IMG/VR virus record: IMGVR_UViG_3300034103_001682 | Span: 1-35,610 of that record | DNA: 35,610 nucleotides | Source of the DNA: a virus | Strand: one strand, 5' to 3' | In this document: piece after piece, positions 12,256 to 29,120 of the stretch | Numbering within the stretch: position 1 is the stretch's first letter | Layout: every line of letters starts with the position of its first letter | Notes under the pieces: generated by a model | Told to the model about the DNA's origin: nothing | Seen by the model: only the letters and a program-made list of their open reading frames with translations | Databases searched by the model: none | Program-made: the position numbers and the translations under genes

Positions 12256-12327
12256 TAGCGAGAGCCGGAATCGAACCGACGACCTTCCGGGTATGAGCCG
12301 GACGCGCTACCGCTGCGCCATCTCGCA
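12256..12327 (-). tRNA. tRNA-Met (CAT)
   Basis: A complete cloverleaf reads on the minus strand. The acceptor stem pairs at positions 2-7 with a T-T mismatch at 1-72. The D arm is GCGC/GCGC, the anticodon stem TCCGG/CCGGA with loop CTCATAC, and the T arm GTCGG TTCGATT CCGGC. The anticodon is CAT. The anticodon stem lacks the three G-C pairs typical of initiators, so an elongator tRNA-Met (or a lysidine-type tRNA-Ile) is more likely, although the open 1-72 pair resembles initiators. CCA is not encoded. It lies inside the late operon between the capsid and deacetylase genes. Confidence 0.9.
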
Positions 12328-22323: not shown

Positions 22324-22781
22324 TTGGCCTGCCTTTCCAGTTCCGCCCTCAGCTTCTCGTACAACGCCTTCGGTTCATACGCCGTTCGCCACACCGCGAT
22401 GTACGCGGACTTGTCGCCCTTCTCGGCACGCTCGACGCGGTTATACCAGCGCTCGCGTGCGTCGATGATCGTCGAGTGATTCGGCCTGCCCATCGCCAGT
22501 GCGATCGCGGGATACGAAAGCCGCGTCAGATCCGCCGCCAGCGCCGACACCAGCTCGCGGGCGATGACCACGCGGCTGAACCGTGACGTAGACCGGAACT
22601 CTGCGGGCTCGATGCGAAGGGCCGCGCAGACGGCACCGACGATCGCGGTCATTGGCACGTTCATGTTGCCAGAGCGTGGAGCCTGAGCCTGGCCAGCAAT
22701 CGCGCCACGAAAGCCCTTGCGGGTCACGGGATCGACGACGGCGGCACAGTTCACGCCGGGGATGGCTTCGGGGAGGTTCAT
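22320..22781 (-). CDS. DnaA domain IV-like DNA-binding protein
   Basis: A 153-aa protein. Residues 60-112 match the C-terminal DNA-binding domain IV of the bacterial initiator DnaA. There is a helix FRSTSRFSRVVIARELVSAL, then LTRLSYPAIALAMGRPNHSTIIDA, where GRPNHSTI stands for the DnaA signature GGRDHTTV that contacts the DnaA box. The AAA+ ATPase domain is absent; the first 55 residues are unrelated. It probably binds DnaA-box-like sites to help or hijack origin firing. It is fused in the operon to the DnaC-like gene by an ATGA overlap and followed by a GTGA overlap. Confidence 0.8.
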   Translation of the reverse strand: MNLPEAIPGVNCAAVVDPVTRKGFRGAIAGQAQAPRSGNMNVPMTAIVGAVCAALRIEPAEFRSTSRFSRVVIARELVSALAADLTRLSYPAIALAMGRPNHSTIIDARERWYNRVERAEKGDKSAYIAVWRTAYEPKALYEKLRAELERQAK

Positions 22782-23497
22782 GCCACCCCCCGCATGCTCG
22801 GCCAGTCGCAGACGACGATTCCGCCGGCTTCGGCCATGCGGTCCAGGATGCTCGGGTCCAGCTTCGCCTGCAACGCCTCACGCGACAGGTTGGACAGCAG
22901 CAGCGTCGCCCGCATGTTGCGATACCGCCGATCGAGCAGCTCGCGCATGTTCCGGTCGCCGAACTCGCCGTCCTTGGCGACCTCGATCTCGTCGATGACC
23001 AGCAGGGCGGGGGTGTCGAACTCGGCGATGACCTTCCGCTCGGACTCCGAGTCGCCCGTGACGGCCTCACGCCAGCGCCGCGAGATGTCGGCCCACGTCG
23101 CATACAGAGCCGTGCCCCGCGTCGTCGCCTTGCGGATGACCTCGCAGGCCATGTGAGTCTTCCCCGTGCCGTGGGAGCCCGTCAGGACGACGATGGCGCC
23201 GGGCTGCTCGATCAGGCGACAGGCGGTGCGGAACTTCTCGACCCATCGCTCGTTCAGGCCGTGGGTCTTCGTCTGTCGGTAGCGCAGGGGCACGCGGGCG
23301 GCGTTGTAGCGTTCGGCGGCTGCGTACTCGGCCTGACGACGCTCGGCGTTCTGGAGCCGCTCTTGGTCGGCCTGGGCGTCAGTAGACCTTGACGGCAGGC
23401 CGCGCATCGCCTCCGACACGGCTGGCGCGATCCGCTGCACGGCGGGCGTCTTCGGATGTCGGGCGGCGATGCGATTGATTTCGGTGATCGGGTCCAT
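22778..23497 (-). CDS. DnaC-like AAA+ helicase loader
   Basis: A 239-aa ATPase that should load the host replicative helicase. Walker A is GSHGTGKTH (residues 107-115), Walker B LLVIDE (165-170), sensor 1 lies in LLLSNLS (200-205), and DPSILDRMAEAGG carries the family's arginine-finger region. The N-terminus is helical (AERRQAEYAAAERYNAARVP). ATG 23497 has GGAGA six bases upstream but overlaps the initiator gene by 119 bp; ATG 23404 (MRGLPSRSTD) is the alternative with a shorter overlap. It lies between the initiator and DnaA-IV genes, forming a replication module. Confidence 0.88.
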   Translation of the reverse strand: MDPITEINRIAARHPKTPAVQRIAPAVSEAMRGLPSRSTDAQADQERLQNAERRQAEYAAAERYNAARVPLRYRQTKTHGLNERWVEKFRTACRLIEQPGAIVVLTGSHGTGKTHMACEVIRKATTRGTALYATWADISRRWREAVTGDSESERKVIAEFDTPALLVIDEIEVAKDGEFGDRNMRELLDRRYRNMRATLLLSNLSREALQAKLDPSILDRMAEAGGIVVCDWPSMRGVA

Positions 23498-24280: not shown

Positions 24281-24793
24281 CTAGAACGCATCCGTGTGTT
24301 CAGAGATCGCCACGAAGCACCGCGGCCCCTCGGCGCCCGCGTAGTGCTTCTCCGTCCGCTGCGACACCACCTGCGAGTCGTCGTGCCACGCGATGCCCTT
24401 GAGCGCGTCTTCTACGGCCCGGAGCATCTTCGTGCAGTCGGGCTTGGTCAGGGGTCGAGCTGGCGCCGAGTCCTTGACGGGCTTGGATCTGTCGCCGGCC
24501 TTGTGGTGCCCAGCCGGACGCGGCATGTAGAACGTGACGCAGAGCTGCACGGGACCGGCAAGGGGGCAGACGCCAGCCTGCCGCGCGAACAACTGGACCG
24601 ACGCTCGCCAGTCCTTGCCCTTCTTGGCGTCGTCGATGAGCACCGGCCTGCCCGCGTGGTGCCCGACGTACTTCTTGCTGCCAGCGGTGCCGGGGACGCC
24701 GGGCACGGTGAAGCTGAAGATCGCGGGCGACGGCTCGGCGACGATGCCAGCCTGGGCGTCGGCGATTTCCTTGTGGGGGAAGTTGCGATTCAA
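24281..24793 (-). CDS. rusA: RusA-family Holliday junction resolvase
   Basis: A 170-aa endonuclease that cuts four-way junctions during phage replication and recombination. The family pattern is clear: FTVPGVPGTAGSKK at the start, then VQLCVTFYMPRPAGHHK, KPDCTKMLRAVEDALKG and AWHDDSQVV. The acidic residues of KPD, VED and HDD correspond to the metal-binding aspartates. The start is TTG 24793, which overlaps the TGA of the upstream membrane gene (TTGA). Longer readings extend through that gene and look non-coding. It lies 23 bases before the initiator gene. Confidence 0.88.
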   Translation of the reverse strand: MNRNFPHKEIADAQAGIVAEPSPAIFSFTVPGVPGTAGSKKYVGHHAGRPVLIDDAKKGKDWRASVQLFARQAGVCPLAGPVQLCVTFYMPRPAGHHKAGDRSKPVKDSAPARPLTKPDCTKMLRAVEDALKGIAWHDDSQVVSQRTEKHYAGAEGPRCFVAISEHTDAF

Positions 24794-25056
24794 GCGACGG
24801 CCTTTCTCTGCGAGTGCGAATGAACGACGACAGTTGCGAGCGTGGCCGGAACCGCATACGCGACGATCAGCAGCGGCCAGGGCTCGCGTGCCATGACTGC
24901 GGAGGCTCCGGCCCCGACGAACGCGATGCGGGTGACGGTGACGAGGAACGCCGCGGCGGTGGATGCGGCAACGGACGCGCCGACGGCGGTTCTCATGCGC
25001 CAGTGCCATGCTGCGGCTTCGACGATGCCGAGAGCGGCGAGGAGGATGAGTGTCAC
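24790..25056 (-). CDS. small multi-spanning membrane protein
   Basis: An 88-aa protein from GTG 25056, overlapping the upstream TGA (GTGA). Three hydrophobic segments are visible: about residues 2-20 (TLILLAALGIVEAAAW), 25-53 (VGASVAASTAAAFLVTVTRIAFVGAGA) and 61-82 (PWPLLIVAYAVPATLATVVVH). A basic tail follows. No family is recognised. It could be an early membrane protein such as a superinfection-exclusion factor, or a holin. Its place between a zinc/coiled-coil protein and RusA does not decide. Confidence 0.65.
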   Translation of the reverse strand: MTLILLAALGIVEAAAWHWRMRTAVGASVAASTAAAFLVTVTRIAFVGAGASAVMAREPWPLLIVAYAVPATLATVVVHSHSQRKAVA

Positions 25057-25478: not shown

Positions 25479-25839
25479 CGCTGCTCCTTTCGGCCTTCCG
25501 CTTCCGCCGCTTCTCGGCCTGGTGCTCGTGCAGTTCCTTCGCCGCATCCACCATCGCCGCAAGTGCCTTCTTCGCCTCGTCGTCCAAGTACCGCGTGTCG
25601 TCGTCGTTCAACTCCAAAGACGACAGGGCGTGCGCGAGTTCGAGAGCGACGTACAAGTCGGTGCCGCCGTGGAACCTGTCCAGCGCCCAGCGGATGCACC
25701 AGCCGGGCGTTGCGATCTGGTCGCCGGCCTCGTCGTCGGAGTCCTCGTACTCGACGACCACGCGAGCGTCGCCGGGGGTGGTGTGTTCGATGCGAACCAG
25801 CGTGTGCTGGCCGTTGCCGGGGGTGTGTTGAACGCTCAT
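25465..25839 (-). CDS. acidic hypothetical protein
   Basis: A 124-aa protein starting MSVQHTPGNGQHTLVRIEHTTPGD. ATG 25839 has AAAGGAG six bases upstream and overlaps the TGA of the PP-loop gene (ATGA). The middle is acidic (VVVEYEDSDDEAGD, ELNDDDTRYLDDE) and the end is strongly basic (AEKRRKRKAERSSDGKR). The contrasting charges might suit a DNA mimic or a protein-protein adapter, but no family is recognised. Confidence 0.6.
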   Translation of the reverse strand: MSVQHTPGNGQHTLVRIEHTTPGDARVVVEYEDSDDEAGDQIATPGWCIRWALDRFHGGTDLYVALELAHALSSLELNDDDTRYLDDEAKKALAAMVDAAKELHEHQAEKRRKRKAERSSDGKR

Positions 25840-26597
25840 CCTCCGCTCCTTTCGTGAGCCGTCACCTCGGCGTCGCCGTCCCAACACGCGCACGGCAGGT
25901 CGTTCCCCGCATCTGCAAACAACGATCCGCCGTCGCGTATCTCTCGGGCGGGCTTGCGCCATTGCATACGCGGAGACCCATCCGGCTGCGGGCCGTGCTT
26001 GGCGTTGGCCGCGTCTTCCAACTTGATGATGCGGTCGAACTTGCAGGGCGAAGAGATGGTCAACTGGACCACCTCTTTCACACGGGCGAACGGGCAATGC
26101 CAACACCCGGACTTCACCGGCACTGGCAACCCGGCTTTAGTGATAGCGGCAACGCACTCGTCGTGGCCCCAGCCCATTTCAATCAGTGGGAACCTCAGCA
26201 CGCGACCGTCGCTCGGCTGCTTTGCCCTGTGCTGCTCGTCCGCGTGAATACCGATCAACTGGACATCGCCAGGCTTGCCATGCGCCGCAACATGCCGCGT
26301 GATGGGCTTGATCTTGGCTTCGACGGAGCAGGTCCGCAGTATCCGGTTGCCAGTAACGGACAACCGCTCCCAACGCTCCAGCACGCCTTCGTCAGCGCAG
26401 ACGACTTCAAGCACGCGCCCACGGCGGCGCAGCAAAGGCGTGACGTACTGGTCGATGTAGGCGTACGTCTCGTCCTTCTCGTCGCGTGTGTCGGCAAAGA
26501 CAACGCGCCACGGATCGGCCTTGATCGTGCCGTCAAGCAACGCCAGCAGCACCGCCGTTGAGTTGACGCCCGCGCCATATGAAAGCCAGTGCGTCAC
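25836..26597 (-). CDS. PP-loop ATP pyrophosphatase, PAPS reductase-like
   Basis: A 253-aa protein from GTG 26597 (overlaps TGA of the upstream gene, GTGA). The N-terminal SYGAGVNSTA (residues 6-15) is the SGGxxST PP-loop of ATP pyrophosphatases, followed by VVFADTRDEKDETYAYID as in PAPS reductase/DndC-type proteins. Later motifs include RTCSVEAKIKPITRHV, IGIHADEQHRA, FPLIEMGWGHDEC and SGCWHCPFARV, a Cys pair often seen in these phage enzymes. It should adenylate a substrate in a sulfur, nucleotide or tRNA/DNA-modification reaction; the substrate is not evident. Its role in the phage is unknown. Confidence 0.75.
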   Translation of the reverse strand: MTHWLSYGAGVNSTAVLLALLDGTIKADPWRVVFADTRDEKDETYAYIDQYVTPLLRRRGRVLEVVCADEGVLERWERLSVTGNRILRTCSVEAKIKPITRHVAAHGKPGDVQLIGIHADEQHRAKQPSDGRVLRFPLIEMGWGHDECVAAITKAGLPVPVKSGCWHCPFARVKEVVQLTISSPCKFDRIIKLEDAANAKHGPQPDGSPRMQWRKPAREIRDGGSLFADAGNDLPCACWDGDAEVTAHERSGG

Positions 26598-26968
26598 TTT
26601 GCACCCCCCACCCGCTCGCGCCCCGCATCCGTGATCTGATAAACGTCTCCCTCGCGCCCACTCCGCAACTTCCGCGTGCCGATGACCTGCACCTGCCCGA
26701 GCCGCACCAGGGCGTTCACGCGCGGGCACACGGTCTGCGTCAACAGCCCCGTCGTGTCCTCAATGTCTTCTCGTGTGGCACCGTTCGCCCACCTGGGCGC
26801 GGCGAGCATCTTGAGGATCATCGACTCGCCCGTGGGCTTGCCGTTGTTGCGGTCGATCGCTCGTGCGGCTGCCTTGCTTGTCGCGGTGCCGTTGTGCGGG
26901 GCGTACTCGACTCGGCCCGAGAACGTCGTCCGTGCGGCGAAGAGGGTGGGCTGTGCGTTCGCGTCCAT
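26594..26968 (-). CDS. winged-helix-like DNA-binding protein
   Basis: A 124-aa protein starting MDANAQPTLFAARTTFSGRVEYAP. Residues 45-120 look like a winged helix: ILKMLAAPRWANGATREDIEDTTGLLTQTVCPRVNALVRLGQV, then two strands QVIGTRKLRSGREGDVYQIT and a final short helix. This layout is typical of phage early regulators that sense replication state. ATG 26968 has AGGAG six bases upstream, just after a strong hairpin. It precedes the PP-loop gene with a GTGA overlap. Confidence 0.7.
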   Translation of the reverse strand: MDANAQPTLFAARTTFSGRVEYAPHNGTATSKAAARAIDRNNGKPTGESMILKMLAAPRWANGATREDIEDTTGLLTQTVCPRVNALVRLGQVQVIGTRKLRSGREGDVYQITDAGRERVGGAK

Positions 26969-27269: not shown

Positions 27270-28139
27270 CTACCAGGGGATGTCGTCTTCCGTGATCGGG
27301 CCGTCGGGCTTGACCTTGCCTGCCACCAACGGCGTCTCGGCCTGCGGCTCATTGCCGTGGTCGATGTCCGTCTGATCCGCGGGCGTCTCGGGTGCTTCGG
27401 CGCCGGCGTCGCGGCCAGCGAGCTTGTCGGCCAGGCTCGGGCGCTTCGGCTGTTCGGCGTGCGTGTCGATTCGATCGCCGTCGTACTCCATCGCCTTCTT
27501 CAACTGCGGCGACAGGGGCAACTGCTGGCACGCGCGGCGAATCACGGTCTTCGTCGCCATCCGCGAGTAATCCGTCTGCCACGGTCCCGAGTTGCCGGAG
27601 CGACTGCGGCGACGGATCGCCTCGACCTCGTTCTTATCCATGACCTCGACCTTGCGGGCACCGTCGGCCATGTCGATGATGCAGTAGACGCCGACCAGCT
27701 CGCCGCGCTTGCCGAGTGGGGCGGGCTCGTGGTTCACCGACGGGCTTGTGCCGCCGGTCCACGAGAACGTGTCGCCATCGCGGACCTCGCGGGCGTCGAT
27801 CATCTTGACGCGGCCCGAGCGGTAGGCCAGCTCGATCAGGCCCTTGTAGCCGATGATGAGCGTCGCCTTGTTGCCGTAGGGGATCAGGTACGCCTGCCCG
27901 AGCGTCTTGGACAGATCCAGACCCAGCTCGCAGACGCGGGCCACAGAGAGCACCAGCGACGACCGATCGCAGTTGCCGAGCTGGGGCGTCTCGATCGCCG
28001 CAATCGCGGCCTGCTTGATGAGCCGGTCCACGTCCACGCCGGACGTCGCCACCGCCGCAATCGAATCCCGCTTGCTCTGGAGCAGCGATTCCGTCGGACT
28101 CACGTTCGCCTTCACGATCGCACCGTTCTCAGTTGACAT
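27270..28139 (-). CDS. recT: RecT-family single-strand annealing protein
   Basis: A 289-aa recombinase that binds single strands left by the exonuclease and anneals them. RecT features include LLQSKRDSIAAVATSGVDVDRL, LSVARVCELGLDLSKTLGQAYLIPYG, ATLIIGYKGLIELAYRSGRV (about 95-115) and WQTDYSRMATKTVIRRACQQLPLSP near 195-220. ATG 28139 (MSTENGA) has GAGGG five bases upstream. The C-terminal tail is acidic and ends ITEDDIPW, like the DDIPF tip of bacterial SSB. It overlaps the exonuclease gene by 11 bp, forming a RecE/RecT-like pair. Confidence 0.9.
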   Translation of the reverse strand: MSTENGAIVKANVSPTESLLQSKRDSIAAVATSGVDVDRLIKQAAIAAIETPQLGNCDRSSLVLSVARVCELGLDLSKTLGQAYLIPYGNKATLIIGYKGLIELAYRSGRVKMIDAREVRDGDTFSWTGGTSPSVNHEPAPLGKRGELVGVYCIIDMADGARKVEVMDKNEVEAIRRRSRSGNSGPWQTDYSRMATKTVIRRACQQLPLSPQLKKAMEYDGDRIDTHAEQPKRPSLADKLAGRDAGAEAPETPADQTDIDHGNEPQAETPLVAGKVKPDGPITEDDIPW

Positions 28140-29004
28140 TCGTTCCCTCGCTTTCAATCTGCCGATAGGCCCACGCCGGGAGCACCAACGGAGTCTCCGC
28201 GTCGTAACCGGGCCACTTGTTGGACTTGACCGCCGCCGCGTACTGCGCCAGCTTCGTGCGAACCTCGCTCATGCCGACGGCGAGCGTGTCGTCGTCGATG
28301 GAGTAGACCGCGACCGCGTAGGGGTCTTCCGACTCGACCGCGACGATGTAGGCGTCGAAGGCTTTGCCGGGGAAGAGCACGCTGCACGCGCGGCGGTAGA
28401 AAGCCATCTGGAAGACGTACCCGAACTTCGCCGCGTCGCGCCCGAACGCATCGGGTGAGGCATCGCCGGTCGTCTTGAAGTCGGCGACGATGATGCGGTC
28501 GGGGCGTTCGATGAGGCAGTCGAATCGGCCCTTGCACACCGCCCCGAACTCGGGATCGGTCCAGACTGCCGACGCTTCGACCAGGGGCTTTGCGGATCGG
28601 AGCATCTGCACCGTCGCGTTCTCACGCGCCGCCGTCGCCATCGCTTGCACGTCCGCCAGCTCCAGACGGCTGATGTGGGTCTTGCCGGGGTTCGCGGCCT
28701 CGAAGACCTCCCACGTGTTCGTGCCGCGGCCCCACGACTCGCCGGTCTTCTCGTTGACCGGGCAGACGGCAACGCGCTCGCGGAACTCGCCGGGCTCGAG
28801 CAGCAGCGTGTGGAACGCCGTGCCCTTGCTCTGCGCCGGGCCGGGAGCATCCGGCACATTGTCGAGCCGACGCCGCAGGTGCAGCATCGTCCGAGCGGCT
28901 TTCAGGTCCGTCTGCGAGAGAGCGGACCAGAGGATGTAATCGGAAAAGGGCACGCCCGGATGCAGGCCAGTCGCGGGCGGCAGGATTCGCGTTCGTGGTT
29001 CCAT
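28129..29004 (-). CDS. PD-(D/E)XK exonuclease, RecB/RecE-like
   Basis: A 291-aa nuclease expected to chew 5' ends and feed the RecT annealase. Motifs: ALSQTDLKAA near 28-37, GTAFHTLLLEP with His65, FDCLIERPDRIIVADFKTT with Asp162, Asp175 and Lys177, and QMAFY with Gln199 and Tyr203 (QxxxY of the RecB-type subfamily). ATG 29004 has GGAGG eight bases upstream and overlaps the TAA of a 38-codon gene (TAATG). The family includes phage RecE C-terminal and DUF3799-type exonucleases. Confidence 0.88.
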   Translation of the reverse strand: MEPRTRILPPATGLHPGVPFSDYILWSALSQTDLKAARTMLHLRRRLDNVPDAPGPAQSKGTAFHTLLLEPGEFRERVAVCPVNEKTGESWGRGTNTWEVFEAANPGKTHISRLELADVQAMATAARENATVQMLRSAKPLVEASAVWTDPEFGAVCKGRFDCLIERPDRIIVADFKTTGDASPDAFGRDAAKFGYVFQMAFYRRACSVLFPGKAFDAYIVAVESEDPYAVAVYSIDDDTLAVGMSEVRTKLAQYAAAVKSNKWPGYDAETPLVLPAWAYRQIESEGTNVN

Positions 29005-29120
29005 TACCGTCCCCTCCCAATGTGAAACGCCCGAGGATGAAGACACGCGACCAACAGGCCCACGGCGAGCAGCATCGCGGAGACGCTGCCGACGATGAGC
29101 GAGACGGCGTACCAGTTCAC
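29004..29120 (-). CDS. 38-aa single-pass membrane protein
   Basis: A short frame coupled at both ends. GTG 29120 overlaps the TGA of the 76-aa gene (GTGA), and its TAA overlaps the exonuclease ATG (TAATG). The protein has one clear membrane segment (residues 4-27: YAVSLIVGSVSAMLLAVGLL and onward) and a basic tail. Without it the operon would have an unusual 112-bp gap. Topology is predicted from hydrophobicity only. Early phages often carry such small membrane proteins, with varied functions. Confidence 0.65.
   Translation of the reverse strand: MNWYAVSLIVGSVSAMLLAVGLLVACLHPRAFHIGRGR

Follow-up and report, generated by a model that had tools for sequence, protein, structure and literature searches.

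A phage RecT protein with an SSB-type C-terminal tip and the recurrence of similar tips among RecT proteins

The window, that is, the whole 35.6-kb stretch of viral DNA analysed here (35,610 nucleotides, IMG/VR record IMGVR_UViG_3300034103_001682), belongs to a temperate phage. Its recombination and replication module comprises, in this order, the genes of a RecE-like exonuclease and of RecT, which adjoin each other, and further along those of a RusA resolvase, a replication initiator and a DnaC/IstB-like helicase loader (Table 1). The presence of the loader would imply that the phage uses the replicative helicase of its host. Elsewhere in the window, genes encoding an integrase, a repressor, a terminase, a portal protein, a protease and capsid proteins were identified. 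A gene similar to phosphoadenosine-phosphosulfate reductase (PHROG 424; positions 25836–26729, minus strand) is located within the recombination/replication module, and a tRNA-Met (CAT) gene (12256–12327, minus strand) is found shortly downstream of the gene for the major capsid protein. TerL, RecE and RecT have distant relatives only, and the hosts that these suggest are not the same.

Table 1. Features of the recT locus and of the surrounding module, with positions in the window
Feature	Position	Strand	Basis and remarks
recT gene, 295 aa	27270..28157	-	TTG start; ATG at 28139 (residue 7) is a possible start
RecT annealing core, residues 50–228	27474..28010	-	Pfam envelope; pLDDT mostly >90 for residues 21–228
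Acidic, proline-rich tail linker, residues 229–287, predicted disordered	27297..27473	-	pLDDT mostly 45–60; DSSP almost all coil
SSB-type C-terminal tip ITEDDIPW	27273..27296	-	Direct reading and statistics
TAG stop, leaving tryptophan as the C-terminal residue	27270..27272	-	Direct reading
RecE-like PD-(D/E)XK exonuclease (DUF3799), just upstream of recT	28129..29046	-	PF12684, 4.7e-28; PHROG 412 (exonuclease VIII), 4.5e-62
RusA-like Holliday junction resolvase, same module	24281..25009	-	PF05866, 2.6e-17
DnaC/IstB-like helicase loader	22778..23497	-	PHROG 50, 1.6e-30

In the profile search, the product of the recT gene matched the Pfam family PF03837 at 1.2e-41 (142.9 bits against a cut-off of 24, residues 50–228) and PHROG 148 at 8.8e-73, and no match to the OB-fold SSB profile (PF00436) was obtained for it in Pfam. 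The AlphaFold2 model of the protein consists of a confident core (residues 21–228) and a low-confidence tail, and exhibits a RecT/RAD52-type fold. The best matches in the PDB were 7ub2 and 7ubb, followed by Red-beta and RAD52; 7ub2, the RecT protein of Listeria phage A118, was matched with an E value of 7.8e-11, and the TM-scores of the model against the PDB matches were moderate (0.46 by query and 0.66 by target). Sequence comparison, too, relates the core to the RecT of phage A118. The window protein is a member of the RecT family, and its annealing activity is predicted.

The C-terminus of this protein is ...KPDGPITEDDIPW-stop. By direct reading, its last ten residues are GPITEDDIPW, and the codons ATC ACG GAA GAC GAC ATC CCC TGG TAG occupy positions 27296–27270. 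Acidic residues followed by a hydrophobic residue, proline and F/W thus stand at the very C-terminus (ITEDDIPW-stop) and are carried on a linker predicted to be disordered. The 67-residue tail, tip included, contains 15 acidic and 7 basic residues; its pLDDT in the AlphaFold2 model is mostly below 60, and below 50 for most of residues 260–282, so that the disorder is a prediction. A frame error or an out-of-frame tail was ruled out, since the GC content at codon positions 1/2/3 is coding-like up to the stop (0.61/0.46/0.89 in the core and 0.75/0.49/0.87 in the tail). Among the 581 window ORFs of at least 30 aa, RecT was the sole match to a loose SSB-like tip pattern, and in shuffling of its own 67-residue tail a terminal [DE][DE][ILVM]P[FW] arose in 10 of a million trials. 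According to the initial annotation, RecT ends in an acidic tail and a DDIPW tip resembling that of SSB; the reading at the TAG stop confirms this observation, which is right and non-trivial. As judged from these sequence data, the ITEDDIPW peptide is of the SSB-tip type and has probably not arisen by chance.

A scan of viral contigs for xDDIPW followed by TAA or TGA (TAG ends were outside its scope) gave 120 loci with 118 reading frames of at least 74 aa, which formed 22 groups and represented many unrelated families. SSBs were the commonest annotated families among the 47 representatives and helicases came next; a nucleotidyltransferase and several unknown families were also found. There were no RecTs among these 120 loci with TAA/TGA stops. 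Since SSBs and then helicases are the commonest annotated bearers, the motif marks proteins working on ssDNA, and the xDDIPW string is thus a portable tip of ssDNA-metabolism proteins. As a separate observation, the phage helicases L222, L211 and L214 (ResIII/Helicase_C domains) end in TEDDIPW, the last seven residues of the window RecT. In addition, a family of proteins of about 200 aa (L231, L228, L316 and relatives) with an EDDIPW end accounts for 34 of the 120 loci; PHROG and Pfam gave no match for its first member, L231, and the family is a candidate phage ssDNA-associated protein.

Relative searches returned no sequences with more than about 45% identity to the window RecT, and searches of genomes from the phyla to which L119, L120 and L132 belong found no RecT closer to it. 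Its nearest relatives (at most 45% identity) do not have the tip. In the first sample of relatives, with 153 distinct ends, an SSB-like tip was present only in the window and in L092 (...FDAEDSMPF). The canonical tip was found in 1 of 117 window-type RecTs (non-redundant at 90% identity), which is not significant in comparison with neighbours (p 0.09). Other loose matches in the window-type set, such as that of L135 (...GCPAW), were set aside as not SSB-like in appearance. Another type of RecT ending is recurrent, mostly in proteobacterial types (...GSIE, ...GMSME, ...GMSVE, ...MPSVE, ...QSMSVE and ...GGAAIE; seen in L104, L117, L084, L091, L170, L181 and L186), and the Anaerococcus-type RecTs (L042, L145, L148 and L197) have in common a segment of acidic and aromatic residues close to the C-terminus (DDFFGDDFEPV or a similar sequence).

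A gapped DNA pattern consisting of the RecT 'M..KT' motif, a tail of set length and [DE][DE]xP[FW]-stop was validated on the window and run on the viral collection. At least five other RecT lineages with canonical tips, widely separated from one another, were found, with the ends ...VVITPDDIPF (L370/L452), ...PITEEDVPF (L485), ...PVTQDDMPF (L343), ...PSLEDVPF (L383) and, in one further group, ...NLDEVPF or ...NFDEVPF. As these lineages were selected via the tip itself, they demonstrate its recurrence and not its frequency. The end of L462 (...GSGGDDIPF) was not relied on, its tail being arginine-rich and the end probably due to chance or a frameshift. On a 210-row FastTree tree, which contains long branches including that of the window, the canonical tip requires 14 changes, at least six of them forced by well-supported branches. 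Several origins of canonical tips within the RecT family are supported by this distribution.

An unselected sample came from a scan that used an alignment built around L383 and ordered its hits by their similarity over the whole RecT; it comprised 49 non-redundant Firmicutes-type RecTs. Canonical tips (EEEPF, EDDYPF, EDAPF and others) were present in 9 of the 49, against 4 of 362 neighbouring ORFs (p 1e-6); for acid-P(x)-F/W/Y ends, which also include EGPGF, EEGPSF and DMPSW, the counts were 25/49 and 9/362 (p 3e-19). A named member is orf43 of Staphylococcus phage PVL (...ESEEEPF). In tip-bearing pairs with cores 60–90% identical, the identity was about 34–61% over the last four residues and about 10% over the preceding 40 positions (ungapped), and among relatives with cores of the same identity the tip was frequently lost or replaced. 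Being more alike than the linker, yet often lost or replaced, the tip is a fast-moving but favoured feature, and by these comparisons it does not vary freely in the Firmicutes-type clade. Many of the tips in this clade are non-canonical (PGF, PAW) and may serve another partner, so that these tips support the case of the window only loosely.

Motifs of the QxxLF type (QTELF, QNLFDNL) were found in the last 60 residues of 11 of these 49 RecTs and of 4 of the 362 neighbouring ORFs, and together with an aromatic tip in L688, L689 and L697. The consensus of bacterial clamp-binding motifs is QL(S/D)LF (PMC9690074). Among the RecT tails of L642–L721, motifs resembling beta-clamp-binding ones (QTELF, QNLFDNL, QTDLF and QTDIF) were noted near the C-terminus, for example in L679, L693, L703 and L706.

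On balance, and by a small degree, it seems probable that the tip serves as a docking peptide through which SSB-binding proteins of the host are drawn to DNA coated with RecT. On an acidic and presumably flexible tail, RecT carries an SSB-type short linear motif (E-D-D-I-P-W-COOH). The RecE-like partner would make ssDNA, and RecT would coat it, presumably exposing many tips. Host proteins with an SSB-tip pocket, such as a recombination mediator, a helicase, or restart or primase factors, could then dock on the RecT-coated DNA in the way they do on DNA covered by SSB, and the RecT tips would compete with SSB for the host proteins that bind SSB tips. Recruitment of this kind was proposed in the initial annotation. 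Its basis in the tip itself stands: the tip is of the SSB type, is unlikely to be due to chance, has SSBs as the commonest annotated bearers of xDDIPW and recurs in RecTs; the exposure and binding of the tip, the receptor that it meets and its influence on recombination are what we infer. The recruitment reading is made plausible by the recurrence across RecT lineages and not by one sequence. Against docking stand the terminal residue, which is W and not the usual F, and the tipless closest relatives, together with the rarity of the canonical tip among window-type RecTs (1/117).

Alternatively, the tip may act inside RecT, where the acidic tail and its terminal aromatic residue would fold onto the DNA groove or an adjacent subunit and adjust the binding of ssDNA or the assembly of filaments, like the tail of SSB. 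This is unlikely, in our opinion, although it needs no host receptor and would explain the loosely conserved acidic-aromatic ends. The tail is indeed rich in acidic residues (15 against 7 basic) and predicted to be disordered, and the C-terminal tails of SSBs can inhibit DNA binding as well as act as interaction interfaces (PMC9917605). However, the exact DDIP[FW] form found repeatedly at the ends of RecTs and SSBs is not expected from an internal role, and many RecTs manage without a tip. Also improbable is that the tip docks on some partner of RecT with an affinity of its own for SSB tips, for instance the phage exonuclease or a second RecT subunit, and ties together the exonuclease, RecT and SSB, or that RecT blocks such sites against the host SSB. 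The known cases of Red-beta, which binds the SSB peptide, and of Sak4 and Sak80alpha, which need the SSB tail, indicate that annealing proteins can receive such a peptide, and the RecE-like gene adjoins recT; but an SSB-tip pocket in the window RecT or its exonuclease is hypothetical.

That the tip arose by chance, or is neutral, at the end of a disordered tail that evolves rapidly is quite unlikely. The tipless nearest relatives and the single canonical tip among the 117 window-type RecTs, which is near expectation, are compatible with chance, and with about 45 genes surveyed a single conspicuous end might conceivably turn up in one of them. On the other hand, the exact form has a frequency of 1e-5 in shuffles of the RecT's own tail, it sits on an ssDNA-binding protein, and tips are strongly enriched in another RecT clade.

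The initial annotation had further stated that no phage SSB gene was seen and that RecT may act as its own SSB. The first statement was borne out within the 35.6-kb record, which is possibly a fragment: there was no Pfam match to PF00436 even at E 1, and none of the window ORFs had homology to the SSB-type families compared. The second failed as a general rule. Among 49 related records, PF00436 was present in 12 of 32 with a tip-bearing RecT and in 5 of 17 without one (p 0.75); tips occur both with and without an SSB gene, and a RecT generally standing in for a missing SSB was therefore rejected. In phages with both an SSB and a tip-bearing RecT, in nearly all cases the SSB bears a DDLPF-type tip as well. 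The exceptions are the related phages L383 and L642, in which the SSB ends in ITGGE and ITRGE and the RecT carries SLEDVPF and SLEDAPF, respectively; the picture in L383/L730 and L642/L729 resembles a transfer of the tip from the SSB to the RecT protein. The SSB of L691 ends in DDITF, and L485 has look-alike tips on its SSB (NDDEVPF) and RecT (EEDVPF). Full replacement of a missing phage SSB by the window RecT is very improbable: the window has no SSB gene, and in L383 and L642 RecT is tipped beside a tipless SSB, but the presence of a tip shows no link to the absence of an SSB gene (see the counts above), SSB is supplied by the host, and an SSB gene may be missing from a fragment.

The preferred reading, docking of host SSB-binding proteins on the tip, would account for the way in which an annealing protein of a phage reaches forks or repair factors, and a tip-bearing RecT reverses the known arrangement, in which the annealing protein accepts the tail of SSB. 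A wider proposal is put forward tentatively and is somewhat doubtful: many RecT proteins may have, at their ends, interchangeable peptides for docking to the replisome of the host (SSB-type tips, beta-clamp motifs or, in some cases, both), by which phages would steer annealing to the fork through imitation of host tags, the window RecT being one such case in a lineage with few others. If it is true that tips and clamp motifs set the performance of RecT in each host, a few C-terminal residues would offer a handle on host dependence in RecT-based genome editing.

Compared with known systems, the window protein resembles the RecT/Red-beta family (PF03837; A118 RecT, 7ub2/7ubb) in sequence family, predicted fold and RecE-like neighbour. 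A118 RecT differs in that no SSB-type tip is visible in the part matching the window RecT; its tail (residues 225–271) is structurally unresolved and was proposed to be a small SSB-binding domain, which is the reverse role (PMC9772228). With the bacterial SSB tip (DDDIPF in E. coli), the window tip has in common acidic residues, proline, a C-terminal aromatic residue and a disordered tail, and it differs in having a terminal W and in being placed on a RecT/RAD52-type annealing fold and not on an OB fold. T7 gp2.5 has been counted among annealing proteins with gene neighbourhoods without ssb genes (PMC8093625); unlike the window RecT, it is an OB-fold SSB without relation to RecT. In the open-access literature, subscription journals being mostly uncovered, no RecT was found described as carrying an SSB-type tip or a clamp-binding motif. 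The tip of the SSB of phage HK620 is NDYPPF, and removal of these last six residues lowered Sak4 recombineering tenfold (PMC5928155), which implies that such tips do recruit annealing machinery. Red-beta of phage lambda binds the SSB C-terminal peptide with a Kd of about 10 uM, the binding site possibly overlapping that for the exonuclease (PMC7496540), and Sak80alpha and Sak4 depend on the SSB tail (PMC11846896, PMC5928155). These three proteins are thus coupled to SSB via an SSB-type tail as its receivers, whereas the window RecT is the bearer.
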